Positions 19,322-51,830 of a stretch of 64,000 nt of DNA are shown here, piece after piece. A program made the translations under genes and the position numbers. The notes under the pieces were generated by a model that did not search any database, was not told the DNA's origin, and worked only from the letters and a program-made list of their open reading frames with translations. Within the stretch, counting starts at the first letter, position 1, and each line of letters begins with the position of its first letter. This DNA comes from Linyphia triangularis. Lineage: Eukaryota; Arthropoda; Arachnida; Araneae; Linyphiidae. The stretch is taken from the NCBI GenBank assembly GCA_963978545.1, contig OZ021732.1, positions 50,201,214-50,265,213 of the forward strand, read 5' to 3'.

Positions 19322-19447
19322 TATACATTTTTAGATAAGTATAAACATCCGCGCCTTACTTAATTTAACTTGGTTTTGAAAAGTTTTTATTTGACGAATT
19401 TTTATGTTTTGCCTCGTCTTGAATTTGAGATTTGCGGGATGAATAGG

Positions 19448-20979: not shown

Positions 20980-20985
20980 TTTATT
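20980..20985 (-). terminator. Poly(A) signal of the secreted-peptide gene
   Basis: AATAAA on the minus strand (TTTATT on plus), about 275 bases after the stop at 21260. It gives the gene a plausible short 3' UTR that ends just before the direct-repeat boundary at 20895. Confidence 0.4.
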
Positions 20986-21259
20986 TCATAAATCCTACAA
21001 TTTTAAGAGCACAAATATATTTTATGTATCACATGAAAATGCACACTGAAACAAAAAGGATTTAAAAACATTAAAAATAGTATGCAATCAATCCAAGCGA
21101 TCGCATAGAATAATTAAACATAACAATTGGTAATTCGGTCTCTAAAATAGTAAATGTCAACTTTAGGAGGGGCGTTTAAATGAATTCCTCGAATTATGAC
21201 AATCACACATTTTGAGTAGCAACAGTCTTGAAAAAACTGCTTCGCCAAGGAACATTGAA

Positions 21260-21613
21260 CTATCCAAAAAACTCTCCAACCATTAAATCCACAAAATATT
21301 GTGCTGCTGCCCTTAAAATCTTCCACAGCAAAACACGAAAAGCCAACCGCGCAAAGAAAGATGGTGCCCCTGGGAAGAGACGCCCCTCAGAATCAGTTTC
21401 GTTTATTTGTTGCACCTCCAAGAACTCATTTTCGAAGCGAGGTTGATGCACATCCTGGGATTCAAAGTCGAAGCTTCTTGCAGATCTTGGTGAAAAGAAA
21501 TATTTTTGAAAGTCATACAAGCCAGTTTCTGCTTCCCGAGAATCGGGTATGGCTATTGCTTCCAGTGCGATTATCGAAAAGCACAGGCAAAACAAGCTCA
21601 CTAAACATTTCAT
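21260..21613 (-). CDS. Small secreted prepropeptide, function unknown
   Basis: Single-exon frame of 117 codons. I chose the ATG at 21613 because it begins a textbook signal peptide: Lys2, then a hydrophobic run to about residue 20 (MKCLVSLFCLCFSIIALEAI). In-frame codons further upstream look non-coding. Residues 21-78 are acidic and hydrophilic with one N-glycosylation sequon (Asn71) and end in Ser-Glu-Gly-Arg. Residues 79-117 form a hydrophobic, mildly basic, probably amphipathic helix segment with the terminal residues Phe-Phe-Gly. Signal, acidic propiece ending in an E-x-R-like processing site, then a short helical C-terminus is the layout of many arthropod secreted peptide precursors, including linear antimicrobial and venom peptides. 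That reading is inference; there are no cysteines in the C-terminal part and I recognise no homologue. A TATA-like TTTATAA lies near 21827-21833 (minus) and AATAAA at 20980. Confidence 0.5.
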   Translation of the reverse strand: MKCLVSLFCLCFSIIALEAIAIPDSREAETGLYDFQKYFFSPRSARSFDFESQDVHQPRFENEFLEVQQINETDSEGRLFPGAPSFFARLAFRVLLWKILRAAAQYFVDLMVGEFFG

Positions 21614-22408
21614 TTTAACTTGTTTTCGTAATAATTCATACGATGAGATGCCCAAGTGTTCGATTCGGAGCTGCAGTTGACATTCCACAGTCGAACATTT
21701 CAGTTCTGATCGTCTACCCACTACTTCGAAACTGAGTAAGTTTGTTAATTTGCTTTTGGGAGGCAGCTGCAATAACCGGTACATCTTCCACAATAACCGA
21801 AACCAATCTCGCAGCTTCTCTATGGGTTATAAATGTTATGTGAGACGGTCCACGCTGACCTGAAAATATGATATCACACTGGACTAAAAGAAAACCCAAC
21901 CAGAAAAAAGTGCATCCCTGATCTACCTAGCAGAAATCATAGGTTATAAAGTGCAATCTGTCCCTGCTAAGTGAAGATACCTTTGAAAAATGTGTGGTGA
22001 TTTTTTCGATTGCCAAAAAATGGTTTTTACGATTTTGATCAAAAACGTTCTAATAGCGTTTTTTTTTTTTTTGGTGTTCTCATCATCACCGAAATTCATT
22101 TGAAATTTCGATGAAAGCTTTAAATCACGAAAAAAGAACGTTTTACAAGTATGAAAACAGTGTTTTCCAACGGCCACCCGTTTATTTTGTGTGTTGCCGG
22201 ATTATTGCTCCGCAAGATGCGTGCTTGTTCCAGTCTTCTTCCACAATGAGCTTTTATTTATGCAAATTTTTTCTTTTTGAAAAAAAAAAATTGTATTATT
22301 TCCTTTTTTTTCCCCCCTTTCTTTTTTCTAAAAATACAAATGTCTTGTTTGGAGTTTCTGTTTAAATCAATTTTACAGCCTTGTTTAGGAATTTACAGAG
22401 TGCATCGA
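21614..22408. other. Non-coding stretch upstream of the secreted-peptide gene
   Basis: Contains the presumed 5' UTR and promoter of the minus-strand gene (to about 21830). Beyond that is AT-rich DNA with short homopolymers. No gene or repeat end was recognised. Confidence 0.4.
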
Positions 22409-23490
22409 TTTTTTTTTTTTTTTTATTTTTTTTTTTTTTTTTTTTTTTTGTTCTTGATTAGACCAGTCCATAACCCAGTCGTAGCACAATGGGATGCAAC
22501 TAAGCCTTTTCTTCATGTTTTGCCGTTGAGTATCGTATTTTTCACATTCGAGGATGAAATATTCAGGGGTTTCCAGTTTATTGCAGCCGACCAAACGGTA
22601 TAGTGGTTAGCATGCTAGCTTCTAGACCGCGAGGTTGCGTGTTCGAGTCCCGTGTTAGACATGGGTGTTTGTAAATGTATGTTGTCTTGTCTAATGACGA
22701 ATGTTTCGGCGCATTGTAGCCCTCGTGTTGTTGACGGCGCCAGATAATCTGAATACAACCAACCAGTTTATTGCAAGAGTTGTACAGGGGAAGTAATAAG
22801 GTTGAAATGGTAAAGAGATGCATTGAGGGTGGTGGACTTAGACGAGCAATTGAACGTCCATAAGCCTGTTGGGGGAGTACTTTTCTAACAAATTAGATGA
22901 TGGGTTGATCCAGGGAAATCTTTTGGAATAAATATTTTGGTTTCTGTTTTGAATTTGTGCAAGTGCATTTTTCCGTTTTATTTCTTTAATGATATCTTCC
23001 GGGGAGATGAGTGAACAAATAAAGTCTTTTGAGGTCGCTTGTCGTGCTGTTTGGTCTGCGAATTCCTTTTCAGGAATTTCGATATGAGTTGGAACCCAAA
23101 CTAGCTCACATTTGTCTATTGTTGAGGATAAATTATAGAAGGAATTTAAAAGGAGTAGGCTGACTTTGGGTGATTTAAGTTTAAGATGTTGAAAGGCGAG
23201 AACGTTTGATTTGCTGTCTGTGAGGATAATTTTTTTTTTTTTTTTGCTTTATCTTTAAAAAATTTCAGGGCAAGGTCAATTGCCAAAGCTTCAGCGGTGT
23301 ATATAGAGTTGAGGTTTGGTATTCTTCCCGAAGCGGTGATTTTTGTGTTGAGGTTAGCCGCTGCGATAGCAGTTGAGTCGGAGGTAAAAGATGCTTCTGT
23401 AGAAACGATCAAAAATTCACCCCAGTGATCCTTTTTATGTGCTTCGAAGAGGGCGCGAACAGCTACCCGTTTTTCAATCAAATTTTCAGG
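22409..23490 (-). pseudogene. LINE 3' fragment: RNase H and C-terminus, with poly(A)
   Basis: The minus-strand frame at 23481-23146 carries RNase H-like sequence (IPNLNSIYTAEALAIDLALKF, matching the family's TAEL-AI--AL). A second frame near 23130-23040 reads LVWVPTHIEIPEKEFADQTA, corresponding to WVPSH-GI-GNE-AD. The C-terminal ETPEYFILECEKYDTQRQNM (near 22560-22500) matches the CCHC-like end of I-type LINEs. The frame is broken, interrupted by a SINE, and followed by a long T run on plus (22409-22449) that is the LINE's poly(A) tail. The family is distinct from the intact LINE at 14468-18073, which ends in TATGAC units. Confidence 0.7.
22586..22764 (+). mobile_element. tRNA-derived SINE, copy 10 (plus strand)
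   Basis: The only copy with the tRNA-like head on the plus strand: it starts GCCGACCAAACGG, has the A box in TATAGTGGTTAGC and the B box GTTCGAGTCCCG at about 22643, and ends ACAACCAACC. It is flanked by the 11-bp target duplication AGTTTATTGCA (22575-22585 and 22765-22775). It sits inside the LINE fragment. Confidence 0.92.
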
Positions 23491-25805
23491 CTACGTGAAT
23501 CAAAATAAATCAAAAGATGCATGCATATCTCTAACCTATCTTAATTTTTAAACCTTTATATTAACTTTGACCCTGTTTGTTTGTGGCGTGAGAAATCGTC
23601 ATAGTGGTTAATGATCCACTTGTAATCATCCAATCGAGTTGAAACTTGGCGAGTAGACCTCGTTGTTGATTATAATGTACTCTATCAAGTTTTTTTGTGT
23701 GTGTGTGTGTGCATGCGCGTGTGTGAAGGGGGGGGGGGGGAGAAAGATAACCGTCATAATACGGAATGTATGTTTTATTCGTAGTAGTCAAACACTGAAA
23801 ACTTGAACCGAGTTCAAATTCCCTTAACTGACTTGCAATTGCACAATAAAAGTTGGTAATGCATGTAAAATTTTTTTAGTAAAACTTTGTTTTTGTTAGT
23901 TTTTACTATTCAAATAAAAAATAAAATATTAGCTTTAGCACTACCCTGTTGTACTAAACCTGCACAAAGACTCTATTTTCTCGGATTCAATTTTCCCATC
24001 CAAAACTAGAAGCGAACTACTATTTGAGTAACCAAGCTTGCCTACTTGGCGAGGTTTGTAATAATTACCATCAAAAATATTGTCAAAATATCCAAGTTTC
24101 CCATTTGTTAACATAGGGAAATGAAAGTATTGTGCTTGGTTTTAAAAAGATCGATATTTTTTTTTAAATTAAGTGAAAGTATGGAAAAGCAAACGCTAAA
24201 AAGTTACTCCGAACCTTTTTTGATTCCTATGAAAAGAGTTTATTTGCTGAAGAAAATTAAGCCATTTTTTTTTTTACCCTCTCTTTTTAACAAATTGTTT
24301 AGAGAGAAGTTCCGTTTTTTGTAAAAGTTAAATTTTGTTTAATTTCAAAAATGGAGTTAATTCTATCTTAGTATTAATGGGAATGGACCCCAGGCCCCCT
24401 TTTAAAGCTGACGTTTTCTCTCTGCATGGGGTTTATAAAAATTATAATACTGTCACTTTTAAAATAATTCAGCCATGGAAATTACACTACTTTTTTATAA
24501 TTCCTTGCATTATTTATTTTTACAGGGGATATGCAATACAAATGCAATTTTTTCTACATTTTGGACGAAGTATGTTTTGATCAATCTATACACGTAGGAG
24601 TATGTTCAATTACTCGTTGTAACATTCTAGGTTAAAGTGAAGACTTACAGTTTCAGCTGGGGCGATATATTTGATCCAATTACCTCAACACCTGCCTTTG
24701 AGGTGCGTACCAGACGATTAAAGTGACAAGAAATAACAAAAACAGGCATTCATCTTTTTATCTGGGCATTGCGGTTTTTACCCTCGTATGATTCAAATTA
24801 TAGACAATATAATTCGAATAATATTTTCTAAGTAACATCTTCTTGAGATCTTTATATAATTTTAGTATTTACTAATATTTTTTCAAAAAGTTTTTAAAAA
24901 GTTATACATTAAATTATAAACACAAATAAAATTATAAAAACAAAAAAATTAGTTGATTTCACTTTAAAAATAAATTGATCTTGATATTTAGTTTTCATCG
25001 TAGTGAAAAATTTGCTTATATAACATTCTTATACAAAATTACAAAGAACTTGAAACTTTCTGGGCATTTACTTCCTTTAACTACATAAGATTTTTGTGCT
25101 TTGGTTACAAATTGTGACATTGCACTATGGTTTCTGGAGTCTGATTTTTGGCCAAGAGTACATTTTTTAACTTTTAAAAACAAATTTTTAATCTTGTTAT
25201 TCCAAAAAAAAAAGAACATTCCAAATTACAAAGTTCCAAAAATATTTTTAACTGTTATTTTCATTGTTCAATATCGTCTGGTTTAAAACCTGTTGGCGGT
25301 TTTCCATTTTATATTTTTTTCATGAATTTTCTCGAATTTTAATGTTGAATAATTCAATATTTTTTCTTGAAATTAACTGTTCTACATAGAGAAAGATTTG
25401 TATTTTTATTTTATATCAAATGGGTATCATAAGTTTGATGGAAATATTGAAAAAATAAGAATATTCAAGGTATGATTTTTTTAAATTTTTTTTTTTAATT
25501 TTTTTTATTTTTACATCTTATAATTTAAAGTGACTTTTAAAAAAATTCTTCAGTTTTCCATAACAAATTTTCACGTTTATGTTCCTGGTTATTTCAAGAT
25601 AAAATTTACCTACAAATGCCTGAAATTATTTGAAAAAATTATTGTTATTCATTTGTGTACATTCAAAATCAGAGACCCCTTTTAGTTGTGGCTGAAAGAA
25701 TGTTCTGTTGTTAATAATTTCAACCCAGCTTTTAATCACTCATGCAAAACTGTTACGGAAATTATAGATTTTTTAGTTAAAATAATCTACAATCATAAAA
25801 CAAAG
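23491..25805. other. AT-rich non-coding DNA
   Basis: No supported gene. It holds a (GT)n tract with a GCATGCGC interruption at about 23695-23726 followed by a G run (about 23728-23740). The remainder is AT-rich with short open frames of no recognisable composition. Confidence 0.45.
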
Positions 25806-26360
25806 AGTCTGTGTGTATGTGGGTCTATCCTTGAGTTTTTTGGTTGTTTTCAGATTATCTGGCGCCGTCCGTAACACGAGGGCTATAATGCGCCGAAACA
25901 TTCGTCATTTGACAAACCAACATACATTTACAAACACCCATGCCTTACACAGGACTCGAACCCGCAACTTCGCGGTCTAGAAGCTAGCAAGCTAACCACT
26001 ATACCGTTTGGTCGGCGGTCTATTCTTGAGACTTTATAGAAAGTGACTTCTAATATCATAGATTTTGAAATTTTAAACGCAAGTAGTAATGGGCTTTTAA
26101 TTATGCTTTTGACAAAAAGAATGTTACAATTTTAATTGGTTTTTGAAACTAATTTTAAAATTTTGTAACGTATTTTTCATAAAGTGACTACAAGATGTTA
26201 AAATTTTAAAGAGTTTTTAATTTTTTTTTTTTTTTTTTTTTAAGTTTGTTTACAAAGCTATTTAAAATAGGCTTAGATCTCTGAAACTTTCAACATAAGT
26301 AGTTTTTGGCCTTCTAATTGGATTTTTGACAAACAGAATCTTAAAATTTTCATTCAAAAT
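25806..26360. repeat. Helitron-like tandem-repeat block (split by a SINE)
   Basis: Diverged units with the words CTGAAATTTTCAACATAAGTAG, TTTTGGCCTTCTAATTGGA (each in part) and TTTTTGACAAACAGAAT, the same unit that recurs about six times at 50240-51070 inside the Helitron. It is preceded by GTCTGTGTGTATGTGGGTC, comparable to GTCTGTCTGTCTGTGGCTC at 50192. Probably a fragment of the same Helitron family; no ends or helicase remain here. Confidence 0.55.
25836..26016 (-). mobile_element. tRNA-derived SINE, copy 11
   Basis: Family member flanked by a 14-bp target duplication with one mismatch (GGTCTATCCTTGAG at 25822-25835, GGTCTATTCTTGAG at 26017-26030). It was inserted in the Helitron-like repeat block. 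Confidence 0.88.
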
Positions 26361-33909: not shown

Positions 33910-34381
33910 TGTTATGAATTTTTCCGCTGAGGCAATGACGGCACAGTTTTTCAGATAAAAACTAGTATTTATTCTCTTCAGAAAACTCACAAAATTTATT
34001 CACAGATAACAGTGCAATCACTATTAATCTTCAATACAAGCTTCAACAAGAACAGCTTCGAATATAGCGATTATACAAGCTCACTCCAATAGGCCAACAA
34101 AGCGATCGCGATCAGCTTTCAACGAAATCCGAAGTACATCTGAAAACTTTCCCGTTCTCCAGTCCTTTATATACAAGCGCGTGAGACATTCTCGAAATTT
34201 CCAGCCAATTCATCGGAAACGAAATATCTCGAAACTTCTCGATTACTTTAGGTGTTGCCACCTTTTTCTAACTTGTATAATCGCTATTAATTAATAAATA
34301 AAATAAGATAAAAATAAATGACAATAGAATTTTGAAATAATACGTCACTATTTACAATATATACAGACAATTCGTGCAACA
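33910..34381 (-). repeat. 3' LTR of Gypsy element 2
   Basis: TG...CA ends on the minus strand (TGTTGCACGAA... to ...TCATAACA). It contains a TATATAAAG box at about 34165-34173 (minus). Next to it, on the internal side, lies the polypurine tract. Confidence 0.92.
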
Positions 34382-34393
34382 TTTCCCCCTTCT
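34382..34393 (-). other. Polypurine tract of Gypsy element 2
   Basis: The minus-strand purine run AGAAGGGGGAAA directly abuts the 3' LTR, as expected for plus-strand priming in reverse transcription. Confidence 0.7.
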
Positions 34394-34485
34394 TAAAGAC
34401 TGCACATCCCGGGCAGTGAAGTCCTTAAGAGGAAAGGCAATTCAATCACTTCTACTATAATATGGGGCTAGTCTATTGTTATGTA

Positions 34486-34656
34486 CAGTCTGTAGCAAAA
34501 TTATTCGAACAATTGTACTCCATTATTCAAAGAATATAAACAAGTCAAGTAAAATATCATTGGTTTAAATTATATCTTCACATGGATATATTATTACGTT
34601 TCGTTGATTCACCAAAATTATTTCGTACGGGCATAATATTTATAATTCAACTATGA
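34486..34656 (+). repeat. Left terminal inverted repeat of the 8.4 kb element
   Basis: 171 bp, inverted copy at 42722-42892 with three substitutions by eye. A 38-bp internal portion recurs directly at 34775-34812, at the edge of the satellite array, with the variant base of the right arm (GTTAAG, not GTCAAG). Confidence 0.92.
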
Positions 34657-34774
34657 TAAGTAGTTTATACCATGGCCTACAATTATAAAAATAATCAATT
34701 TTAGGGTGCTTTTAAAATATTTGTGTTAAATATAACAAAACCTCGACTGAACGATAAGAAAAGTTTCGGTTCGA

Positions 34775-34812
34775 CAAAGAATATAAACAAGTTAAGTAAA
34801 ATATCATTGGTT
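34775..34812 (+). repeat. Partial internal copy of the terminal repeat
   Basis: CAAAGAATATAAACAAGTTA... repeats bases 34534-34571 of the left arm and ends where the satellite begins. It suggests a local rearrangement at the array's left edge. Confidence 0.75.
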
Positions 34813-36192
34813 ATTATCTGGCGCAATCACCAACACAAGGGCTATACTGCACCGAAACAATCGTCGTTGATAAGGAAATAAATTTTAGAATAACAGTATT
34901 CAAATTATCTGGCGCAATCACCAACACAAGGGCTATACTGCACCGAAACAATTGATAAAGAAATAAATTTTAGAATAACAGTATTCAAATTATCTGGCGC
35001 AATCACCAACACAAGGGCTATACTGCACCGAAACAATTGATAAAGAAATAAATTTTAGAATAACAGTATTTGGTTGTATTTAAATTATCTGGCGCAATCA
35101 CCAGCACAAGGGCTATACTGCACCGAAACAATTGATAAAGAAATAAATTTTAGAATAACAGTATTTGGTTGTATTTAAATTATCTGGCGCAATCACCAAC
35201 ACAAGGGCTATACTGCACCGAAACAATTGATAAAGAAATAAATTTTAGAATAACAGTATTTGGTTGTATTTAAATTATCTGGCGCAATCACCAACACAAG
35301 GGCTATACTGCACCGAAACAATTGATAAAGAAATAAATTTTAGAATAACAGTATTTGGTTGTATTTAAATTATCTGGCGCAATCACCAACACAAGGGCTA
35401 TACTGCACCGAAACAATTGATAAAGAAATAAATTTTAGAATAACAGTATTCAAATTATCTGGCGCAATCACCAACACAAGGGCTATACTGCACCGAAACA
35501 ATTGATAAAGAAATAAATTTTAGAATAACAGTATTTGGTTGTATTTAAATTATCTGGCGCAATCACCAACACAAGGGCTATACTGCACCGAAACAATTGA
35601 TAAAGAAATAAATTTTAGAATACCAGTATTTGGTTGTATTTAAATTATCTGGCGCAATCACCAACACAAGGGCTATACTGCACCGAAACAATCGTCATTG
35701 ATAAATTTTAGAATAACAGTATTGAAGGTTGGTTGTATTCAAATTATCTGGCGCAGTCACCAACACAAGGGCTATACTGCACCGAAACAATCATCATTGA
35801 TAAAGAAATAAATTTTAGAATAACAGTATTGAAGGTTGGTTGTATTCAAATTATCTGGCGCAACACAGGGGCTATACTACACCGAAACAATCGTCATTGA
35901 TAAAGAAATAAATTTTAGAATAACAGTATTGAAGGTTGGTTGTATTTAAATTATCTGGCGCAGTCACCAACACAACTGCACCGAAACAATTGATAAAGAA
36001 ATAAATTTTAGAATAACAGTATTGAAATTATCTGGCGCAATCACCAACACAACTGCACCGAAACAATTGATAAAGAAATAAATTTTAGAATAACAGTATT
36101 TGGTTGTATTCAAATTATCTGGCGCAACACAAGGGCTATACTGCACCGAAACAATTGATAAAGAAATAAATTTTAGAATAGCAGTATTGAAG
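34811..36192 (+). repeat. Satellite array derived from the SINE 3' half
   Basis: About 15 copies, 76-107 bp each, most often 95 bp, of a monomer with two parts. The first is 60-75 bp related to the SINE body and tail (TTATCTGGCGCAATCACC, ACACAAGGGCTATACTGCACC). The second is an unrelated spacer of about 30 bp (AAATAAATTTTAGAATAACA). Aligned by eye with the SINE, a well-preserved copy at 35729-35803 has about 10 mismatches in 75 bases. The tRNA-like head is missing in every copy. Confidence 0.9.
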
Positions 36193-36458
36193 GAGAAATG
36201 CTAGTGAATAAACAGGGGTACATTAAATTGTTTTATGTAACGATGGGGTTGTAACCTTGTCCCCGACAATGGGAGTTCATGCAGCTAGTAATATAACAAA
36301 ATTGGAAAGTGAAAATAACAAAACCTCTGCTGAACTTAGCTTTTAGTGAGAATTTCAAAAGAAAAGTTTCGAAAATGTGTTCGACAAAAAAATACAATTT
36401 TGCACCTGACAGCTAACCCAATACTTTGATAGGTCACGCCTATTTTTTTATCGATTGC

Positions 36459-36467
36459 TATAAAAGG
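36459..36467 (+). promoter_or_regulatory. TATA box of the 161-codon gene
   Basis: TATAAAAGG, 45 bases before the ATG at 36504, in a less AT-rich setting. A start site about 30 bases downstream leaves a 5' UTR of roughly 15 bases. Confidence 0.65.
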
Positions 36468-36503
36468 AGTAGAACTCTGCAGACCACATACACTTGCTAA
36501 ACG

Positions 36504-36989
36504 ATGTCTTGTAATACCGTTTGTCAAGCTGAATTCTTCTATTACGGGGGCAAATTTCAGCCCCGTAAAATTTACTTCACAAGTGTATATGACAGCAACG
36601 ACTCACTAACAGTTAAGGTAAGGGACGACTCCCTTACCTTATTCTCATATGAAGATGTCGTAAAAAACCTGGAGTTACCGACCAATCCATTCATCCAAGG
36701 TTTAGAAACAGACTGTCTCAAGGAGATAGAAGTGTCCAAGCTACCGGCGTACTTGGCGGACCAACTCATGAGGGATCTGAATCCCCATAGCTGCCCGGCG
36801 AGATTAGGAACTATAGACAGCGCCACGTATTTCTACTTAAAGTCGATCATTCCCAGTGGTCTGATCTTACTGGGGGCCAATCTGTTGGAAGAACAGATTG
36901 GCCTCAATGGACTCAATATCTGCCAGGCTGTCGCAGATAAACTGTATCTTAAGCGGCAGCCTGGCGATGAACCCTATTGGGATTGCTAA
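36504..36989 (+). CDS. Unknown 161-residue protein of the 8.4 kb element
   Basis: I do not recognise this protein. The frame starts at the first ATG after a TATA box and is followed 11 bases past its stop by AATAAA (37001), so it makes a complete compact transcription unit without introns. The base composition is clearly richer in G+C than the flanks, and the frame has mixed, globular amino-acid composition: an N-terminal part with beta-strand-like segments (KIYFTSVYD, LTVKVRDDSLTLFSYEDV), a middle EVSKLPAYLADQL helix and a C-terminal DEPYWDC. No signal peptide or membrane segment. The FSYEDVVKNLEL segment is faintly like the start of viral BRO-N-type domains, but that is too weak to name. 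The next gene downstream, on the same strand, is ALKBH2-like. Confidence 0.65.
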   Translation: MSCNTVCQAEFFYYGGKFQPRKIYFTSVYDSNDSLTVKVRDDSLTLFSYEDVVKNLELPTNPFIQGLETDCLKEIEVSKLPAYLADQLMRDLNPHSCPARLGTIDSATYFYLKSIIPSGLILLGANLLEEQIGLNGLNICQAVADKLYLKRQPGDEPYWDC

Positions 36990-37000
36990 TTTTTGTAAGT

Positions 37001-37006
37001 AATAAA
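37001..37006 (+). terminator. Poly(A) signal of the 161-codon gene
   Basis: AATAAA 11 bases after the stop codon, giving a very short 3' UTR. Confidence 0.6.
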
Positions 37007-37242
37007 TGTTAACTTTTTGTGAATGAATATTTTTCTCTTGTCTGACCTTACCATATTTTTTATAACGTTTTATCTGGAATAATCTACAAAAATGTTTAAG
37101 AATTACTTATTATTTAAAAAAAAATCTGAAATTTATACTAAGCATATTTTAATTTAAAAAGGCATGTATATAGAATCTTCGTGGTGTGCAGAATGTATTT
37201 TTAAAGTATATGGTGTGTAATTCTCATCAAAACAATTATCCT

Positions 37243-37815
37243 GATTGAATTTTCTAGTTTTTTAAATTCCATAGGTTCAATAACAAAATGCATCTATCTT
37301 TTAAAAACAATTGTAGACAGGTTTTTTTTATATTATTTAATCAGAAAGAAATATTCCAAACTGAGTTGATACTCAGACCGTTTTTTAAAAAAATCGTTGA
37401 GGATAATATTTATTTAGACTTGAACTTTACAGACATTAAAGAAAGAATCTCCTTGAAAATATAATTGACTATAGTCACGATTCGATCGTCACTTACCATT
37501 TCAATTAAGGTTTCGTAAAATGTAAGAAATTATCTGAAACTAAGATTGAATATATCGAATTTTCTAGTAGGTGATTAATTCAATAACAAAATGGATATAT
37601 CTCTACAATTGTAGACTGAGTTGGTCAGAAAGAAATATTCCAAACTGTAATATAATTATTCAGACTGTTTTTTTAAAAAAATCGTTGAGGATAATATTTA
37701 TTTCGACATATTAATTCGGATAATATTAAAATATAATTAACTGTAGTTACGATTCGATCGTGACTTACCTTTTCAATTAAATAAATACCACCTGCTAATG
37801 TAAGAAATTATCTGA
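37243..37815 (+). repeat. Two diverged tandem copies of about 300 bp
   Basis: Copy 1 (about 37243-37545) and copy 2 (about 37546-37815) share GATTGAAT, CAATAACAAAATG, CAGAAAGAAATATTCCAAAC, AAAAAAATCGTTGAGGATAA, ACGATTCGATCGT and GTAAGAAATTATCTG in the same order. Non-coding; it fills most of the space between the two plus-strand genes. Confidence 0.7.
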
Positions 37816-37963
37816 TTGAATTTTTTTTATCAAAACATAGGATATTCTTAAACTCAAAGCACTACTTTCGATATGTTTTGACGTAATAATTTCTATGTCA
37901 TTAGTTTAAGAAACATGGGATGTTAATAAAAAAAAAAAAAAACAATTATATTAAAATAAATTG

Positions 37964-37971
37964 TATAAATA
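37964..37971 (+). promoter_or_regulatory. TATA box of the ALKBH2-like gene
   Basis: TATAAATA, 31 bases before the ATG at 37995 and 46 before the ATG at 38010. Its place argues against translation from the earlier in-frame ATG at 37920, which would put the TATA box inside a Lys/Asn-rich coding stretch. Confidence 0.6.
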
Positions 37972-37994
37972 ACACCGAAAATATTTGTACTCAT

Positions 37995-38576
37995 ATGAAA
38001 GCCAGTCTAATGTCAACTGATTTGAATATCGAACTTGTTGAAAGCTTTTACGATACAATTAAATCACAACAATTATTTCATGAGTTGTTACAGTACAAAT
38101 ATGAAAAACTACAAATGAACTTTAATGGGAAAAATTTCATCCCCAAAAGAAAAGTGTTGGGTTTTGGAGACATTGGTGTCAATTATGTTTTTTCTGGAAC
38201 GTGTGTATTTTCCAAACCATGGACTCCTTCTTTATGGCAAATAAAATTAGATGTGGAAAACAAGACTAAACAAAAATATAATTTTGCACTTTTAAACTTT
38301 TACTCTAATGGAAATGCTAAAATTTCTCCTCATAAAGATAATGAAAAAGACTTGAATCCAGACTCTATCATTCCAACTTTAAGTCTTGGAGCTACAAGGA
38401 TTATGAAATTTACCCGGCCCAAATTTAAGTCCAGTAAAATCCAATTACCAAATGGATCGCTTCTGCTTATAAAACCACCAACTAACAAGTTTTGGAACCA
38501 TTCTATTTCTGCCGAGCTAGCCGTAATACATCCAAGAATAAGTGTTACTTTTCGAAATATAAAAAACAATACTTGA
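37995..38576 (+). CDS. ALKBH2-like 2-oxoglutarate/Fe(II) dioxygenase
   Basis: AlkB-family enzymes oxidatively remove methyl groups from N1-methyladenine and N3-methylcytosine in DNA. From the ATG at 37995 the protein has 193 residues, normal for ALKBH2-type proteins; 38010 is also possible. Landmarks in order: KVLGFGDIGVNYVFSG (substrate-lid region), FALLNFYSNG (the N-x-Y/F position), the metal ligands in SPHKDNE (HxD), TLSLGATR, NGSLLLIKPPTN, the distal His in WNHSI, and the 2-oxoglutarate Arg in PRISVTFR. All key residues appear present, so activity is plausible. It is intronless, has a TATA box close to the ATG and AATAAA at 38625 and 38645, and lies in a transposon: unlike a normal host copy. 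Whether it came from a host or a virus is unknown. Confidence 0.88.
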   Translation: MKASLMSTDLNIELVESFYDTIKSQQLFHELLQYKYEKLQMNFNGKNFIPKRKVLGFGDIGVNYVFSGTCVFSKPWTPSLWQIKLDVENKTKQKYNFALLNFYSNGNAKISPHKDNEKDLNPDSIIPTLSLGATRIMKFTRPKFKSSKIQLPNGSLLLIKPPTNKFWNHSISAELAVIHPRISVTFRNIKNNT

Positions 38577-38624
38577 ATTTACGCAAAGATGCGTAAAAAA
38601 TTTTTACAGTATATAATTTAATTA

Positions 38625-38650
38625 AATAAATTTGAGGTAATAGCAATAAA
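38625..38650 (+). terminator. Poly(A) signals of the ALKBH2-like gene
   Basis: AATAAA at 38625-38630 and again at 38645-38650, the second inside the first 172-bp tandem unit. A small inverted repeat, TTACGC/GCGTAA, follows the stop at 38579-38596. Confidence 0.55.
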
Positions 38651-39332
38651 TAAAAAGAGTTTATTACATACATAAAGTATCTTTTATTTTTACAAAACAA
38701 ATATATTTTTAAACACAATCAATTTATGATGAAAAAAGTGTCTAAACGTTGAAATAACTTTATATACAGAGCATCGGAAACATTTTAAACAATAGCGACT
38801 TTTGCTCGGTTTGAGCAATAAATAAAAAGAGTTTATTACATACATAAAGTATCTTTTTTTTTACAAAACAAATATATTTTTAAACACAATCAATTTTATG
38901 ATGAAAAAAGTGTCTAAACGTTGAAATAACTTTATATACAGAGCATCGGAAACATTTTAAACAATAGTGACTTTTGCTCGGTTTGAGCAATAAATAAAAA
39001 GAGTTTATTACATACATAAAGTATTCTTTTTTTTACAAAACAAATATATTTTTAAACACAATCAATTTTATGATGAAAAAAGTGTCTAAACGTTGAAATA
39101 ACTTTATATACAGAGCATCGGAAACATTTTAAACAATAGTGACTTTTGCTCGGTTTGAGCAATAAATAAAAAGAGTTTATTACATACATAAAGTATTCTT
39201 TTTTTTACAAAACAAATATATTTTTAAACACAATCAATTTTACATTTATGATGAAAAAAGTGTCTAAACGTTGAAATAACTTTATATACAGAGCATGAAT
39301 ATCGGAAACATTTTGGACAATAGTGACTTGAA
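38642..39332. repeat. Four tandem 172-bp units between convergent genes
   Basis: Starts at 38642, 38814, 38986 and 39158, exactly 172 apart. Each unit holds AATAAATAAAAAGAG on plus and TTTTATT or T-run words usable as poly(A) signals on minus. Each also holds a copy of the end of the minus-strand zinc-finger-like frame (TGTCTAAACGTTGAAATAAC). The fourth unit retains that frame; the others are extra copies of the gene end. Confidence 0.9.
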
Positions 39333-39860
39333 TGTCTATGCAAAGTTCGTATTTCTATAGGCAAATTTCTTTGAAGTTCAATTTTTGCATAATGTCCTGT
39401 GACGTATAACATGTCAATATGCATTTTTTTTTACATAATAATAAACGTCATTATGCCAATCATTTGAACGAATAGATCGTGTTTTATAATGAGTAAATGT
39501 TGCTAAGGTGAATCGAATAGGTCCTCGCTTGAAAGGGCTGGGTGGGAATTGAAATTCTAAAATTCCGATTACCGGTTTCATTAATCTTATTGGTGAATTT
39601 TCACGGCTTGAAGAATTTTCACGTTTTGGAGATCGTATTGGAGAATTTTCACGTTTTGGAGATCGTATTGGAGAATTTTCACGTTTTGGAGATCGTATTG
39701 GAGAATTTTCACGTTTTGGAGATCGTATTGGAGAATTTTCACGGCTTGAAGAATTTTCATGTTTTGGTGACTTTAATGGTATAAATGAAGCATCCCCTTC
39801 AACTTCCATTATGATTTGATTATTTCTGCAAATGTCGCTAGAATATATAGGCGAATTCAT
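39224..39860 (-). pseudogene. Ser-Pro-Ile-Arg repeat protein with Cys/His-rich C-terminus, split by a frameshift
   Basis: Convergent to the ALKBH2-like gene. The ATG is at 39860. The first frame (to 39414) has a short acidic lead (IIMEVEGDASFIPLKSPKHE). Then come four to five near-identical 10-residue units of the type RENSPIRSPK, encoded by 30-bp DNA repeats at about 39600-39750, then a basic segment. It ends at a stop just after an A9 run. The next frame begins at the overlapping ATGCATATTGA (39424) and runs 66 codons to 39224, with a Cys/His-rich part (HYCPKCFRYSC...HFFHHKCKIDC) that could bind zinc. A one-base length change in the A9 run would join the two, so this may be a slippage site, a sequencing error or a real break. 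No known family recognised. Confidence 0.5.
39600..39750 (-). repeat. 30-bp coding minisatellite
   Basis: On plus, GATCGTATTGGAGAATTTTC plus ACGTTTTGGA recurs four times with almost no change, preserving the reading frame of the minus-strand Ser-Pro repeat protein. Confidence 0.85.
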
Positions 39861-39884
39861 ATTTTTTTTATTTTTTGACGTCAA

Positions 39885-41539
39885 TAAGCTCTTGTATAAA
39901 AAGTTCAGTCATGATTGGGGAGCAGGTGTGTTTTAGTTTATCGACAGTTCGCAAACGAAAGTTTCACTTCAGAAATTTGGATTGCACAACTAAAAATAAT
40001 TTTCTTGGAGTCTAATCTAACAAACAGAAAAATTTCTTTAAAAAAAATACTTGCTGTATAAAGCGATACTGTAAAATACTTGGAGGCTCCCCCTACACTG
40101 GGTCTCTTATTAGGTTTATCCAAAAGCATAGATCACAACACTCTAATGGTTTATTAAAAATATACAGGAACTCAGAGTTTTTTAAAAATCCTGCATTGTC
40201 ATAGCGCCAATATCAAAAACATTTCTATCAGCCTATGTATCAAAATTTATTTATTAAAAATGAACGTGCATCCAAATATCACTTGTTTATCAAAGTAATT
40301 TTATTATTTATTTATTAAAAACAAATTGGCAGACAATGCTATCTTAAAGCGATACGGCAAGTTGGTTTATTAGTTAAAAGCAATCTGACAGGCCCAAAAT
40401 TTGATAGAATGCTTTGTCCTATCTACCAAGTTTCAGCTTGAGGGAGGCCTCCACATATTCTCCTCAAGTTAAGTTTGATGCAATTTATATCAAAAAAAGG
40501 TAACGATAAAAGAAAATTAGTTTGCAATTATTTCAACTAAACAGACTGCAATTTTTGGACCTCTGAATTTTTTATAGAGAGTAGATTACTGGTGGCCGAA
40601 ACTGGGCAAAAATTGACTTTTAATAAGTTGAACTAATGCGCCATAACTTGTCAGCATTTTTTTTATTTAGTAACCCTCAGATATCGGTCTACTTGGGAGC
40701 CAAGTTGGCAAAAAATATTACGTCGCTTACTTTTAAAAGATATAAGTTTTTCCGAGCCGTTTTCTCATTGAAAATGCAGTGGGTTGCCAGACGAAAAAGT
40801 TTGTTCTATGTAGTTACGACATATTTGGCAATCGGATTTTAGTTCAATTCATTCCAAGTCGATTAGTTTCGACAGACCAGTAGATTCCTTATCTCTTCAA
40901 TTTCTATAAAAAATAATGTTCCAAAAATTGCAGTCGGACTATAATTTGAAAGATTTAGTCCAAATACTTGGGGAGGGGGCATTTTTGGAATGTATTGGTC
41001 ATCACAATTTGGCTTAAAAGGAATTTTTAAACGAAAGTTTTTCAGTGGTCGATATGCTTAGGTAGTATCACAAATTAGAAGAAGACATATATTTTTAAAT
41101 GTGCTGCCACATTACAGTGGCTTTGGAACTGTCTCTTCAATTTTCACCAACAAGCAGACAGTTGCTACAACAGAATTCTTTAAATGTGATTAACCTTTTA
41201 TTTCCTGCTAGAGAAAAAATATGCATAGTTGTCTTGAATTGATTACTTGTTGTAAGTAGTAAAATTGACTCTGAGTTGAACTATTAGATTTTGGATTAAA
41301 GAAAGTATTGGACGAAGTACTACCGAACAGAATGCTCTGAGAAATGGAATCTGCATTTACTAACTCTATCTGAATAACTCTGAAATAAATTTGAATCACT
41401 CTGAAATAATTTTCAAATGTGATACAATTCATAAACAAAATCATATACACATTTGAAATAGGTCCCACATCCAATTGTGTACAAATTCTTTCAAAAAGAT
41501 CTACTTGGTAATTAGGAAATTCTTGTCATTGAACCGACA
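39885..41539. other. Element interior without recognised genes
   Basis: AT-rich. Short frames (for example minus 41208-41474, with a small internal FRVIQI repeat) lack recognisable domains. I looked for DDE-transposase landmarks here on both strands and saw none. Confidence 0.45.
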
Positions 41540-41645
41540 CTATACTAAACTTCAACTTAACTAGATATTACTTGTGGTTTGGCGAGAATTACGCCGCCAA
41601 AATGGATTAAATACCTACCGTGATGTCTAGTTAAGTTTAGTATAG
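41540..41645. repeat. Small inverted repeat (about 105 bp)
   Basis: CTATACTAAACTT...AACTAGA at 41540-41566 (with a 6-base insertion) faces TCTAGTTAAGTTTAGTATAG at 41626-41645. The centre has GGCGAGAATTACGCCGCC. Probably a tiny MITE or hairpin. Confidence 0.55.
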
Positions 41646-42117
41646 AGGCTGATTTATTCTTCTGCGTGTATAATTTTCTTTTTACAGTATTAAAAAATAT
41701 ACCAGCCTGTGCAAAACTCCATTTTAATTAAGGTATACAATTAAGATGATTTCCTTTAGGTTATAATTTCAAACTTTTTGGAAGTATAATGCATTTTTAT
41801 GTATAAACTTTCTTTTTCCGTCAATTTTTGAATTGCAGTGACTAATTAGGAGAACATACATAAATAAACTAGCTTAGAGGTAATATTTTTATTGCAAATT
41901 GACGCCAAAAAAATTCAGATGTGCATAAAAAATGTGTTTATAACAATATATATTAGATGCTCAACAATTATTGTTAACAAAACAAAATTAGAATTCTGTA
42001 AATCGGATAATTTATTAAGAAGTTATGACCGTAAAGTCATATGATACCAAAATGTCATTCTTCAGAAAAAGCGTTTAAAGTTTACTGTACTAATGAATGT
42101 GAAATTCCTACTTTATC

Positions 42118-42190
42118 GGGCCCGATGGCCTGGTGTGTTAAGTTTTGTTTTACATTCGAAAGGTTCCTGGTTCGAAGCCCGGTAACCTTT
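42118..42190 (+). other. tRNA-like segment with A and B box words
   Basis: TGGCCTGGTGTGTTAAG resembles a pol III A box and GGTTCGAAGCC a B box, 45 bases apart, followed by TTTTTTT. The T-arm has one mismatch and the acceptor ends do not pair, so it is not a functional tRNA. It could be a SINE head or a tRNA pseudogene. It is different from the resident SINE. Confidence 0.4.
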
Positions 42191-42269
42191 TTTTAGATTT
42201 GGAAATTTTTTATTATGAGGATTCTTATGGAAAATATTTTACAAAATACCTGTTTAAAACATGCAAGTG

Positions 42270-42395
42270 TTTTAAAGACAATTATAGTTTTTTTTCTATG
42301 AATTTTTATCTAAAAAAAATCATTATTTATAAATGTAAGGGTTATTATTTTTTTGAATAAAAATTCATAGGAAAAAACTATAATTGTCTTTAAAA
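42270..42395. repeat. Large hairpin (about 40-bp arms)
   Basis: TTTTAAAGACAATTATAGTT... at 42270-42310 and its complement at 42355-42395 pair with only a few mismatches across a 44-base loop. It directly follows the tRNA-like segment. Confidence 0.75.
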
Positions 42396-42474
42396 ATTTG
42401 CCTGTCAACAAATCTTCAAAGAAATAATTTTATTTCTTGTTATATGTTAACAATTATTTATTAACCATGTATAA

Positions 42475-42715
42475 TAAAAAATATAAAATTTTAAAAAATA
42501 TAAAATTTTAAAAAATATAAAATTTTAAAAAATATAAAATTTTAAAAAATATAAAATTTTAAAAAATATAAAATTTTAAAAAATATAAAATTTTAAAAAA
42601 TATAAAATTTTAAAAAATATAAAATTTTAAAAAATATAAATTTTTAAAAAATATAAAATTTTTAAAAATATAAAATTTTTAAAAATATAAAATTTTAAAA
42701 AATATAAAATTTTAT
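42475..42715. repeat. 17-bp AT minisatellite
   Basis: About 14 units of ATATAAAATTTTAAAAA, the last few with small shifts, ending a few bases before the right terminal inverted repeat. The unit contains the palindrome AAAATTTT. Confidence 0.92.
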
Positions 42716-42721
42716 TAGTAG

Positions 42722-42892
42722 TCATAGTTGAATTATAAATATTATGCCCGTACTAAATAATTTTGGTGAATCAACGAAACGTAATAATATATCCATGTGA
42801 AGATATAATTTAAACCAATGATATTTTACTTAACTTGTTTATATTCTTTGAATAATGGAGTACAATTGTTTGAATAATTTTGCTACAGACTG
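42722..42892 (-). repeat. Right terminal inverted repeat of the 8.4 kb element
   Basis: Inverted copy of 34486-34656 ending GACTG before TA. The Gypsy pol frame reads 17 codons into it and stops, so the insertion truncates that frame. Confidence 0.92.
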
Positions 42893-43969
42893 TACAACTC
42901 TAGGTTTACAGGAGGGTGTCCGTTGAATCCTTACCACGACGTCGTTGATCCTCTTAAGGACCACATACGGCCCTTCCCAGTTCGTCTGGAGCTTAGGGGA
43001 GAGTCCTTTCCGACGTTTAGGATTCCATAACCACACCTTGTCACCTTCCTGGAATGAACGGTCCATGACCTTGGCATAGTACCGGATCTTCACGCGCTCC
43101 GTCATGATGTTGTTTCTCTCTCTGGCGAACCGATGTACGGCTTCCAAACGTGCCTGCAGATCATCTAGATACTGGACAGGCGAGGAAGGAGTGTCCTGTG
43201 GTTGTCCAAAGAGGAGGTTGCTGGGGAGCCTAAGGTCTCTTCCACACATCGTTAGAGATGGAGAAAATCCGGTGGTCTCGTGAGTTGCACTCCCGTATGC
43301 CAACAGAAGCGGTGAACGTTTCTGATCCCCATCTTGCTGGTTATATGATTTTGAGATTGAGTCCGAATCATCCGCGGGTGCAGCTGATAGATCCCGGGAC
43401 CTCCGTTCGATGCTTGTAACAGGAGTACGGATGTCGATTCCCTCTTCACTAACTTTGTCCATTTCCACATGAACCACTTCCTGGGAGGGTTTCATCAGCG
43501 TCACTTTCTTCGGTTCTCTGTCCGAGGCTGGTGAGGTACTTTTCATAGATGTGGACTCTTCAGCATTCTCCAGGACATTGTCTTCATGAGCCATAATCCG
43601 ATATACGCACAGCTCTTTCATTTCTAGATCGTGCAAAGGAACTTCGCCTCTCCATGTTTGCAGCTTGCTTTTCTCAAAATTCAGCGTAATTCCATTTTTC
43701 TTCAAAAAGTCTAGTCCGAGAATGCACGGATCTACGATTTCGGCAACATAAACGGTGTGCTTGTAGGTGCTAAATCCAAGGGCAATGTCCACTTCCAATT
43801 TCCCATGCACAGAGATATTACCACCGGACACAGTTTGTAGCGAAACAGAGGGCGCTGTGTAGAGGAGTCGGCTGTTCCGGCGACGAGCCACGTCCGTCCT
43901 TACGATCGTTACGTTCGCTCCCGAATCGACGATTAGACGACATGGAGTTCCGTCGATCTCCCCCTTCAC
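42839..43969 (-). pseudogene. pol: Gypsy pol remnant: protease fused to integrase C-terminus
   Basis: An aspartic protease domain opens the frame with LIVDSGANVTIV (D-S-G catalytic triplet), followed by the GLDFLKKNGI flap-helix region. It is in a different frame from gag, so expression would need a frameshift near the gag stop (44051). After about residue 200 the sequence jumps to an integrase tail (LAYGSATHETTGFSP, GRDLRLPSNLLFG, NWEGPYVVLKRI). Reverse transcriptase, RNase H and the integrase catalytic core are absent, which shows an internal deletion with its joint near 43320-43400. The end is displaced: the last codons from the TA at 42893 are transposon sequence, and the true final 14 codons lie beyond the 8.4 kb insertion near 34443-34484. 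Confidence 0.85.
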
Positions 43970-44050
43970 GAATAAACCCTGGTTTCCTCCTTGTCGGGAT
44001 GAAACGTGGAAACGACTGGTCGGGGCTTCACCTGTTCTACATTGCAGCTC

Positions 44051-45523
44051 CTACCCTGCGAGATGGCATCTTCTTAGATTCAGTTGTTGAGATTCCGTGG
44101 TAGTGTTATCCCTTTTCTTTTTCAAATCAAGGCAGTTACGTCGTAGATGCCCTTCCCGTTTGCAGTGCCAGCAAATGACTCTGGTCCTTCGATCCCTGGC
44201 TCCGGGATAGCTTCTCATCATTCGATCAATTTTGCTTTCCAGTTCTCGAAGCTTTCTGGTGACAAAGTCAGAAGAATCCTCGGCTAATGCACCACGCACA
44301 TATCGTCGGTCTTTTCCAGAAGCTAGCTGCGCGGCTTCTACTCTCATGGCGTACACGAGGGCCGACTTCAGGTTTTTGTTTTGGGATAACCTTACCGCCT
44401 GCTGCACATCGGGATCTTGAATAGCGTCGATGAAATACTGCAGAGAAAGATCGTCTCGTACGTCTGAGGGACAGTCTGGGAAAGCGAGGAGCGACAGTCT
44501 TTCTATATCCGATGCCAATTCTTGAAGAGTTTCATTGGCCTTCTGCTGTCTCACTTTCAATTGCAGTCTGTTGTAATCCTTTAGATGCTGCTCCCCAAAC
44601 CTTAATTCCAACGCACTTGCCAGCGCCACGAATTCTCCCCGCTTCTCTTCAGGTAGTGTCTGTAAAATGTCAGCAGCTTCACCTCGAAGAGATGCTGCGA
44701 GATGGAATGCTTTCGAAGTATCGTCCCAACCATTCGCAGAAGCAATCATTTCAAATTGCGTTTGATAAACGCGCCAAGACGACTTCCCATCAAAAGGGGC
44801 CACTTTGATGTTAGAGCGCGGCGCCATAAAGGGGATGGAAGCGTTATCCCAATTAGGTGACGCTATGGCCAGAGCTTCACGCGTTTCCATTTTTCGCAGC
44901 CTTTCTTCTACAACGTCAATGAATTTGTCTTGCTCTTCCTTTAAGGTGGAAACTTTTTCTTGCATGGTGGAAACTTTTTCTTGCACGGTGGAAACTTTTT
45001 CTTCAACTTCATTTCTCACTGTCTTAAGATCTTCTCTGACATCCAAAATATCCGCCTTCATTGATTGAAGAACACTCTCTGTGCGCTCCATAAATCTATC
45101 AACGGACGCAGAAGATGATTCTTGCTTGGATGCTAAAGCTTTAATATCCGATGATGTCGCTTCTTGGCTGGCGGTGATTGCGGCGGCGAGTTCAGCGTTA
45201 GTCGTTTCTTGGCGGGTTTGACCAGCGGCGATTGTAGCGGCGAGTTCGGCATTTGTCGTTTCTTGACGGGCTTGACCAGCGGCGATTGTAGCGGCGAGTT
45301 CGGCATTTGTCGTTTCTTGACGGGCTTGACCAGCGGCGATTGTAGCGGCGGTTGATTCTTGTCCGGCTTTTATTTCGACGATTGTAGCGGCGGTTGATTC
45401 TTGTCCGGCTTTTATTTCGGCTTTCATTTCAGCGGCCGTGGATTCTTGTCCGGCTTTTATTCCAGCAATCATTTCCATCAACTGCTTCATTTGGTCTTCC
45501 ATCATTCCTCTAGTTGTCGGCAT
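44051..45523 (-). CDS. gag: Gypsy Gag (coiled coil, capsid, zinc knuckle)
   Basis: 490 residues from ATG 45523, 15 bases inside the primer-binding site, uninterrupted. Residues 1-210 are an Ala/Glu/Gln-rich coiled coil with direct repeats: AGQESTAA units, then three copies of AGQARQETTNAELAATI-type units encoded by 51-bp repeats at about 45180-45340, and EKVSTxQ heptad-like copies. Residues 235-400 match a retrotransposon capsid (NIKVAPFDGKSSWRVYQTQF, AADILQTL, ERLSLLAFPDCP). Residues 451-464 are a CCHC zinc knuckle, CWHCKREGHLRRNC. The Gag of element 1 at 1-687 is a relative. Gag assembles the particle in which the element RNA is reverse-transcribed. Although pol is deleted, this gag could still be expressed from the intact LTR. 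Confidence 0.9.
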   Translation of the reverse strand: MPTTRGMMEDQMKQLMEMIAGIKAGQESTAAEMKAEIKAGQESTAATIVEIKAGQESTAATIAAGQARQETTNAELAATIAAGQARQETTNAELAATIAAGQTRQETTNAELAAAITASQEATSSDIKALASKQESSSASVDRFMERTESVLQSMKADILDVREDLKTVRNEVEEKVSTVQEKVSTMQEKVSTLKEEQDKFIDVVEERLRKMETREALAIASPNWDNASIPFMAPRSNIKVAPFDGKSSWRVYQTQFEMIASANGWDDTSKAFHLAASLRGEAADILQTLPEEKRGEFVALASALELRFGEQHLKDYNRLQLKVRQQKANETLQELASDIERLSLLAFPDCPSDVRDDLSLQYFIDAIQDPDVQQAVRLSQNKNLKSALVYAMRVEAAQLASGKDRRYVRGALAEDSSDFVTRKLRELESKIDRMMRSYPGARDRRTRVICWHCKREGHLRRNCLDLKKKRDNTTTESQQLNLRRCHLAG

Positions 45524-45537
45524 TCAAAATTACGAGA

Positions 45538-45554
45538 CCCCACTTCTGACACCA
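45538..45554 (-). other. tRNA primer-binding site of Gypsy element 2
   Basis: TGGTGTCAGAAGTGGGG on the minus strand, one base inside the 5' LTR. Same site as in element 1 (693-709) apart from the last base. Confidence 0.7.
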
Positions 45555-45555
45555 C

Positions 45556-46027
45556 TGTTATGAATTTTTCCGCTGAGGCAATGACGGCACAGTTTTTCAG
45601 ATAAAAACTAGTATTTATTCTCTTCAGAAAACTCACAAAATTTATTCACAGATAACAGTGCAATCACTATTAATCTTCAATACAAGCTTCAACAAGAACA
45701 GCTTCGAATATAGCGATTATACAAGCTCACTCCAATAGGTCAACAAAGCGATCGCGATCAGCTTTCAACGAAATCCGAAGTACATCTGAAAACTTTCCCG
45801 TTCTCCAGTTCTTTATATACAAGCGCGTGAGACATTCTCGAAATTTCCAGCCAATTCATCGGAGACGAAATATCTCGAAACTTCTCGATTACTTTAGGTG
45901 TTGCCACCATTTTCTAACTTGTATAATCGCTATTAATTAATAAATAAAATAAGATAAAAATAAATGACAATAGAATTTTGAAATAATACGTCACTATTTA
46001 CAATATATACAGACAATTCGTGCAACA
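45556..46027 (-). repeat. 5' LTR of Gypsy element 2
   Basis: 472 bp with the same ends and TATATAAAG box as the 3' LTR, with four substitutions by eye (CCAAC/TCAAC, AGTCC/AGTTC, GGAAAC/GGAGAC, CCTTTTT/CCATTTT). It is followed by ATAT, the second copy of the target duplication. Confidence 0.92.
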
Positions 46028-51070: not shown

Positions 51071-51457
51071 TATTCTTAAAGGAGTGCTGTGTTATAATTA
51101 TTAACGGGGCTTTTTTGGCCTTGTTTCTCGACAAGGGAGAAGTTTCTAATATTAAGGCTTTCCTTACAATTAGTTTTTAGTGTGTGAAGCGACCTTACGC
51201 TTACGCAGCAATGAACCTTTCATCGAGCAATAGCATAGCCGGCCACGTGTTATTTAGACTGAAGTATAAATTGAATTCATATTATAGTAAAAGTAATACA
51301 GTAGAATTCTTCTTGCTTTTTAATTATTAGTGCTTCATTGTTCAAAAATCTTCATTTAAAATATATACATATAAGTATTATCACATAGTTAATACCTGGA
51401 ATGCTACCACATAATCTTTGATTAAAGATTGGTTCACCAATTATTCTCCTGCGTAAT

Positions 51458-51830
51458 TTGAATCCACCTCGATTATGCTACGGTACGCGTTTGGTCATCA
51501 AAAAGATCACCGGAAATATACTTGAAACTACCATTTTAACTGGAAAATTTAAAGGAGAAGTGGTCCTGTTGCCACGTATTCCGATGATACCATCAGAATC
51601 TACGATACCCTTCAAAAGGTTACAGTTTTCAATTCGTTTAGCTTTTGCCACGTCTATAAATAAGTCTCAAGGCCAAACAATGTCCATTTGTGGTTTAGAT
51701 TTGGAAAATCCATGTTTTTCTCATGGGCAACTATGTTGCATGTTCACGTGTAGGAAAACCGTCGAATCTATTTGTGTTAGCTAAAGACAGGTTAACCAAA
51801 AATATTGCGCACCGATTAGTGCTAAATTAA
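51458..51830 (+). pseudogene. Helitron helicase C-terminus (Pif1-type), frameshifted
   Basis: The frame encodes the last part of the Pif1-family helicase of Helitron Rep-Hel proteins: NPPRLCYGTRLVIKK, ETTILTGKFKGEVVLLPRIP, PFKRLQFSIRLAFATSINKS followed by QGQ (helicase motif region) and LENPCFSHGQL. A one-base shift near 51740 moves the rest to another frame, where CSRVGKPSNLFVLAKDRLTK continues and ends at a stop (about 51830). Upstream helicase motifs and Rep are missing. The helicase unwinds the donor strand during rolling-circle transposition; this copy is dead. Confidence 0.85.

Follow-up and report, generated by a model that had tools for sequence, protein, structure and literature searches.

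A probable composite, non-autonomous element with Tc1/mariner-type ends and an ALKBH2-like gene fragment inside a Gypsy element of the spider Linyphia triangularis

In the genome of the spider Linyphia triangularis (GenBank assembly GCA_963978545.1), a stretch of 64,000 nucleotides (contig OZ021732.1, positions 50,201,214 to 50,265,213 of the forward strand; here called the window) contains a Gypsy-type long terminal repeat (LTR) element that is interrupted by 8.4 kb of DNA with ends of the Tc1/mariner type. The locus raises the question of what kind of entity this block is and how an ALKBH2-like gene came to lie between such ends. A preliminary description considered three answers, i.e., a giant non-autonomous element with captured cargo, a virus-transposon hybrid, or a viral segment mobilised by Tc1 ends. 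The first of these is the best fit to a clean single insertion for which no transposase is listed and which holds cargo open reading frames (ORFs). The block is probably a large composite non-autonomous element that was moved in trans and whose patchwork interior had accreted before the move.

The boundaries of the block are well defined. It spans 8407 bp (34486-42892; all coordinates are those of the window) and is delimited by terminal inverted repeats (TIRs) of 171 bp, found by an inverted-repeat search and alignment at 34486-34656 (plus strand) and 42722-42892 (minus strand). The left TIR starts CAGTCTGTAGC; CAGT is a typical start of a Tc1/mariner end. The two repeats differ at three of 171 positions (98.2% identity; TIR positions 22, 61 and 139), while the search itself gives 175 nt, its arms including the flanking TA and two further bases per side. 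A TA target site duplication is found at 34484-34485 on the left and 42893-42894 on the right, i.e., both the TA duplication and the inverted repeats at the two ends that characterize the Tc1/mariner superfamily are present. When the flanks are joined over one TA, an uninterrupted minus-strand frame is restored, which ends in NWEGPYVVLKRINDVVVRIQRTPSCKPRVVHNNRLAPYYSRSD before its stop codon (the end is also written PSCKPRVVHNNRLAPYYSRSD) and which we interpret as the C-terminus of a Gypsy integrase; in the window, the interrupted Gypsy frame stops at 42839, within the right TIR. Because the ends match, the TA is duplicated and the empty site is in frame, the block is, in the sequence as assembled, one bounded insertion. 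The TA-flanked 171-bp ends and the precise interruption of a Gypsy frame, both reported earlier from inspection of the sequence, are thus borne out, and the single-TA, in-frame empty site rules out the refutation that had been named beforehand, i.e., two separate insertions of miniature inverted-repeat transposable elements (MITEs) with unrelated DNA between them. The first 20 bases of the TIR have no further occurrence in the 64-kb window when up to four mismatches are allowed, so that no internal ends are seen, and an exact TIR 21-mer has no match in IMG/VR or in GTDB genomes.

The element that holds the insertion (33910-46027, minus strand) was recognized from its LTR pair, its flanks and its matches to protease and the integrase end. 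Its LTRs, at 33910-34381 and 45556-46027 (472 bp each, with ATATAT at both outer flanks), differ at 4 of 472 bases (0.85%), and this Gypsy copy is therefore, as judged from its LTRs, young. One ORF of 403 amino acids (aa) gives protease matches followed by weak, sub-cut-off matches to the integrase end, and since no reverse transcriptase match lies between the two, pol seems to have suffered an internal deletion. The age of this Gypsy copy should be an upper limit for that of the 8.4-kb block, unless Gypsy copied itself carrying the block. The interior of the block includes an apparently old direct duplication (37276-37508 and 37579-37780 within 37276-37780, plus strand; 72.6% identity) and the ALKBH2-like ORF, which is 79-80% identical to the nearest relative found. 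The combination of young LTRs and an older interior suggests that the old pieces most likely arrived together with the ends. The same observation bears on the alternative that a small MITE was inserted into Gypsy and that the ~8-kb interior was added afterwards through nested insertions and local growth of arrays. Several interior segments may be nested elements and arrays can expand fast, but so small an LTR difference leaves little time for an ~8-kb mosaic that includes an old duplication, and the possible nested elements lack a convincing target site duplication; we regard this history as quite unlikely.

The coding content of the block was assessed by comparing six-frame translations of 34486-42892, with X at stops, with Pfam at E ≤ 1, where the scan filters drop most matches above about E 0.1. 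No transposase family and no viral hallmark domain is listed in this comparison, nor was any transposase remnant found; the 2OG-Fe(II) oxygenase family is the only one above its cut-off. Four families appear below theirs (FtsL, E 0.017; PPO1_DWL, E 0.041; HTH_28, E 0.061; DUF2457, E 0.87). The sole DNA-binding match among them, HTH_28 (13.9 bits, cut-off 25, at 35980-36045), was considered as a hint of a transposase and is taken as chance; it falls in a tandem array of 95-bp units and spans a stop codon. The DDE/D transposase of the Tc1/mariner superfamily is thus not seen, and because no transposase is listed, the element is not classed as an autonomous member of the superfamily. To this extent, the earlier statement that no transposase is visible holds.

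The six-frame comparison also speaks to a viral origin, either as a virus-transposon hybrid or as a viral segment carried by Tc1 ends. An orphan ORF (ORF1, below), a compact gene layout and the occurrence of AlkB domains in some viruses would suit such an origin. Hybrids of the Teratorn or Polinton kind, however, carry viral replication, capsid or packaging genes, and none of these appears in the six-frame Pfam scan. The preliminary description had proposed a search with the cargo proteins against arthropod DNA viruses; single-protein scans of IMG/VR, which reach close relatives only, found no relatives of the ALKBH2-like (AlkB) ORF or ORF1, nor of P0001 and P0084, two proteins related to the AlkB ORF. 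Distant AlkB matches are found in six phage records (25.8-37.7% identity in the five listed), which have no bearing on origin, and the AlkB ORF groups with a spider ALKBH2. Both viral readings are unsupported by these data and extremely unlikely.

The AlkB ORF, identified by Pfam, PDB and relative searches, lies at 38010-38576 on the plus strand (188 aa from its ATG, in a frame open from 37905). It matches PF13532 at 76.1 bits, and its best PDB match is human ALKBH2 (102.1 bits, compared with 50.2 for ALKBH3). Residues H140, D142, H196 and R208, which we take to be metal- and cofactor-binding, are invariant in seven aligned rows. With an oxygenase domain nearer ALKBH2 than ALKBH3 and these key residues in place, the predicted protein would be of the ALKBH2 type. 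A motif scan places a putative TATA-like box, TATAAATA, 46 nt upstream of the ATG (37964-37971, plus strand), and AATAAA is found 49 nt downstream of the stop codon.

The nearest relatives found are P0084 (80% identity over 184 aa), P0001 (71%) and P0002 (55%); P0002 is a protein of the spider Oedothorax gibbosus. When the C-terminal part of P0001 served as query, the search gave four proteins, P0001 among them, from 11 candidates. Three relatives, P0084, P0085 and P0086 (469, 455 and 485 aa, respectively), are composed of the AlkB domain, a weakly PC4-like part and a C-terminus with conserved Cys/His; the PC4 match itself is confined to P0084 (Pfam E 0.0082, below cut-off; PDB MoSub1, E 0.27), and in P0001 a weak match to cold-shock (E 0.048) takes its place. 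Part of this extension is present also in P0001 (324 aa) and P0002 (267 aa). The AlkB ORF corresponds to the N-terminal ~185 aa of the family and is without the ~270-300 aa, i.e., the PC4-like and Cys/His parts, that are present in the three longest relatives; a profile search for the missing extension among the 1528 ORFs of the window gave nothing clear (best E 0.32). Hence, the ALKBH2-like gene claimed initially is recovered as a domain, in a form shorter than its relatives. A structure model of P0084 is too poor for a fold search (mean predicted local distance difference test, pLDDT, 40.6), and no family combining AlkB and PC4-like parts was found in the open-access literature searched for AlkB, PC4 and spider together.

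A tree was built from 84 of 87 AlkB rows, the three longer ones being left out. In it, the AlkB ORF, P0084, P0085, P0086, P0001 and P0002 form one clade (support 99/96), which adjoins the ALKBH2 of Araneus ventricosus (100/97); the rows are the matches of two relative searches, which include few animal ALKBH2 sequences and not the human one. This position next to a spider ALKBH2 suggests that the gene was most likely captured. The branch leading to the window ORF has a length of 0.22, compared with 0.07 for P0084, and the ORF departs at four of 63 columns that are invariant in the other five proteins (P0084 at two of 61, and each of the remaining proteins at 1 to 12); one departure, D111N, adjoins the metal motif. 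Of 63 conserved columns, 4 carry changes specific to the ORF, compared with 12 of the 75 others; the difference is not significant (p 0.11).

Two further frames were described initially as unknown genes. ORF1 (36504-36989, plus strand; 161 aa), examined through the ORF list, relative searches and shuffling, exceeds the longest ORF in all of 2000 shuffles of its surroundings, among which the longest is 152 aa. It is an orphan: of 17 candidate relatives none is at E ≤ 1 in a search that needs shared 5-residue words, there is no PDB sequence match, and the structure model (mean pLDDT 36.8) is too poor for a fold search. A candidate TATA-like box from the motif scan, TATAAAAG, lies 45 nt before its start codon (36459-36466, plus strand) and a presumed AATAAA signal starts 12 nt past its stop codon (37001-37006, plus strand). 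The coding status of ORF3 (39414-39860, minus strand; 148 aa; from the ORF list and shuffling) is unsure, as its length is equalled in three of 2000 shuffles and an in-frame 30-bp tandem repeat (39608-39743) makes up much of it. One stretch of ORF3 gave weak pairwise matches to four extended AlkB proteins (E 0.69, 1.5, 2.4 and 13), which a profile did not confirm, and the relation was rejected. Thus, as an unknown gene, ORF1 has good support from the shuffles and ORF3 less. A MITE is short and has no coding capacity, which does not describe a block of 8407 bp with an ORF longer than any in 2000 shuffles and an AlkB domain.

These frames might instead be the original genes of a formerly autonomous, multi-gene element of the Tc1/mariner type, comparable to ciliate Tec and TBE, that has lost its transposase, where ORF1, the AlkB ORF and ORF3 had a role in the life cycle. 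The unusual length of ORF1, the retained H140, D142, H196 and R208, and the similarly compact arrangement of ORF1 and the AlkB ORF, with a TATA-like box lying 45 or 46 nt upstream of the ATG and AATAAA following the stop by 12 or 49 nt, would fit such an ancestry. The shared layout was, however, noticed after the fact, and TATA-like boxes are common in the element (24 on the plus strand, 14 of them within an array of 17-bp units, and eight on the minus strand). Against original function stand the loss of the C-terminal extension with no clear trace among the window ORFs, the departures at invariant columns including D111N, constraint that is not demonstrable on the window branch, and the lack of a transposase remnant in the six frames compared with Pfam. 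We consider this ancestry unlikely. A more elaborate proposal is a spider lineage of multi-gene elements with Tc1/mariner ends, in which an original ALKBH2-PC4-like gene (455-485 aa) would repair or demethylate element DNA during movement, the window copy being a decayed member moved in trans; this we hold to be very unlikely. On the preferred reading of a composite element, its genes are most likely passengers.

The remaining interior consists largely of repeats. A 38-nt direct copy of TIR nucleotides 43-80 (34775-34812, plus strand) abuts a tandem array of 95-bp units (34813-36188, plus strand), i.e., the array begins exactly where the TIR copy ends. The 95-bp unit matches 11 places outside the element, all within the window. 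Eight of these were aligned, the three copies within a duplicated block at 18074-20895 being left out, and found to be ~180-bp repeats of which ~75 bp from one end is contained in the array unit; the other half reads by eye like what we presume to be a tRNA-derived head of a short interspersed nuclear element (SINE). Accordingly, of the satellite-type arrays claimed at first, the arrays as such are present, but that at 34813-36188 arose by amplification of part of a dispersed repeat and is no independent satellite. The SINE-like repeat is unusually dense, with its eleven places within 20 kb (6402-26020). The other arrays are composed of 172-bp units (38642-39296, 3.8 copies) and of AT-rich 17-bp units adjoining the right end (42475-42714); no source of either was found in the window, except for a short AT-rich match of the 17-bp array. 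Possible nested MITE remnants are a 392-bp segment with 16-bp inverted ends (40544-40935) and a 106-bp segment with 13-bp inverted ends, CTATACTAAACTT (41540-41645), with no target site duplication found at either, and a near-palindrome at 42259-42405 (81% over 150 columns) may be a nested foldback element. By eye, 42106-42190 is tRNA-like and possibly another SINE remnant; tRNA and Rfam scans of the window gave no hits (ARAGORN and Rfam, 0 and 0).

The composite element that we favor probably formed as follows. Its interior would have been assembled before the move from unrelated pieces, i.e., a single-frame ALKBH2-like gene fragment, the orphan frame ORF1, part of a SINE-like repeat amplified to an array, other arrays and possible nested elements. 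Accretion probably proceeded by nested insertion and by template switching during faulty repair of the gaps that earlier excisions had left, a route suggested by the patchwork, the old duplication and the youth of the Gypsy copy and hinted at by the exact junction between the TIR fragment and the SINE-derived array. Both 171-bp ends would then have been recognized by a transposase of the Tc1/mariner type produced from another locus, and the whole block was inserted at a TA within the sequence for the Gypsy integrase end.

Several observations weigh against this scenario. The TIRs differ at a higher rate (3/171) than the LTRs (4/472), although the TIRs would be expected to be the younger pair; the excess reflects either differences that predate the insertion or small-number noise. 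Direct repeats within the TIR of the inverted repeat/direct repeat type are weakly present, with a score of 12 that is equalled by 92 of 2000 shuffles. The Gypsy element might have replicated after it had received the block, in which case the argument from age would be weaker, and some interior parts could postdate the move.

Among known systems, MITEs and other non-autonomous Tc1/mariner elements have in common with the block a TA duplication, inverted ends, the lack of a transposase and presumed movement in trans. MITEs are usually a few hundred bases long, whereas the 8.4 kb here harbor large arrays and ORFs of gene size. The nearest parallel is ToxTA (formerly ToxhAT) of Bipolaris sorokiniana and relatives, which is 14 kb long with a TA duplication and 74-bp TIRs, and which its authors hold to be a likely non-autonomous, gene-carrying Tc1/Mariner element that depends on other transposases and contains nested transposons (PMC12506042). 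The likeness, drawn by description, comprises large size, TA duplication, TIRs, gene cargo and nested elements; ToxTA differs in being fungal, with other cargo and shorter TIRs, while the block is from an animal and contains AlkB, orphan frames and a SINE-derived array. A length of several kilobases, a TA duplication, long TIRs, gene cargo and no listed transposase would place the block, as far as sequence can tell, among the large cargo-bearing non-autonomous Tc1/mariner elements of the ToxTA kind; it is a new animal example and no new kind, given what has been proposed for ToxTA (PMC12506042). No animal case of a large cargo-bearing Tc1/mariner element was found in the searches made of the open-access literature.

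Other systems share single traits. The ciliate elements Tec (Euplotes) and TBE (Oxytricha) are Tc1/mariner elements with three ORFs (PMC7325037, PMC4724952); the TIRs of Tec are about 700 bp and both encode a DD34E transposase (PMC7325037). They resemble the block in having several ORFs and differ in this transposase, of which none was found here. Tetris of Drosophila virilis is described as an apparently non-autonomous foldback element whose end-linked tandem repeats can feed satellite arrays (PMC4079207), but these repeats are within the TIRs, while the array here lies inside the ends, derives from a dispersed repeat and is accompanied by gene cargo. A mobile element with an AlkB-family gene is known from Phalaenopsis, where Gypsy elements are reported to carry an AlkB-family demethylase domain of the RNA-demethylase type that is active in vitro (PMC9289625); these are orchid LTR retrotransposons, in contrast to a TIR element with a truncated ORF for a predicted protein of the ALKBH2 type.

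As the clean insertion in a young Gypsy copy indicates, ends of the Tc1/mariner type are able, in an animal, to carry patchwork DNA of more than 8 kb. Through non-autonomous elements that bear genes, transposons could spread DNA-modifying enzymes.

Elsewhere in the window, a 2.8-kb block occurs twice in direct order with 99.6% identity (11658-14467 and 18074-20895), and the 1176-aa ORF between the copies (14567-18097) reads by eye as the pol of a long interspersed nuclear element. An ORF at 51422-51784 has a Pif1 2B-domain match above cut-off (29.7 bits) and may be the terminal part of a Helitron helicase. On the minus strand, an open frame of 506 codons (61727-63247) resembles by eye an exon of a La-related protein; it may be the only genuine host gene in the window.

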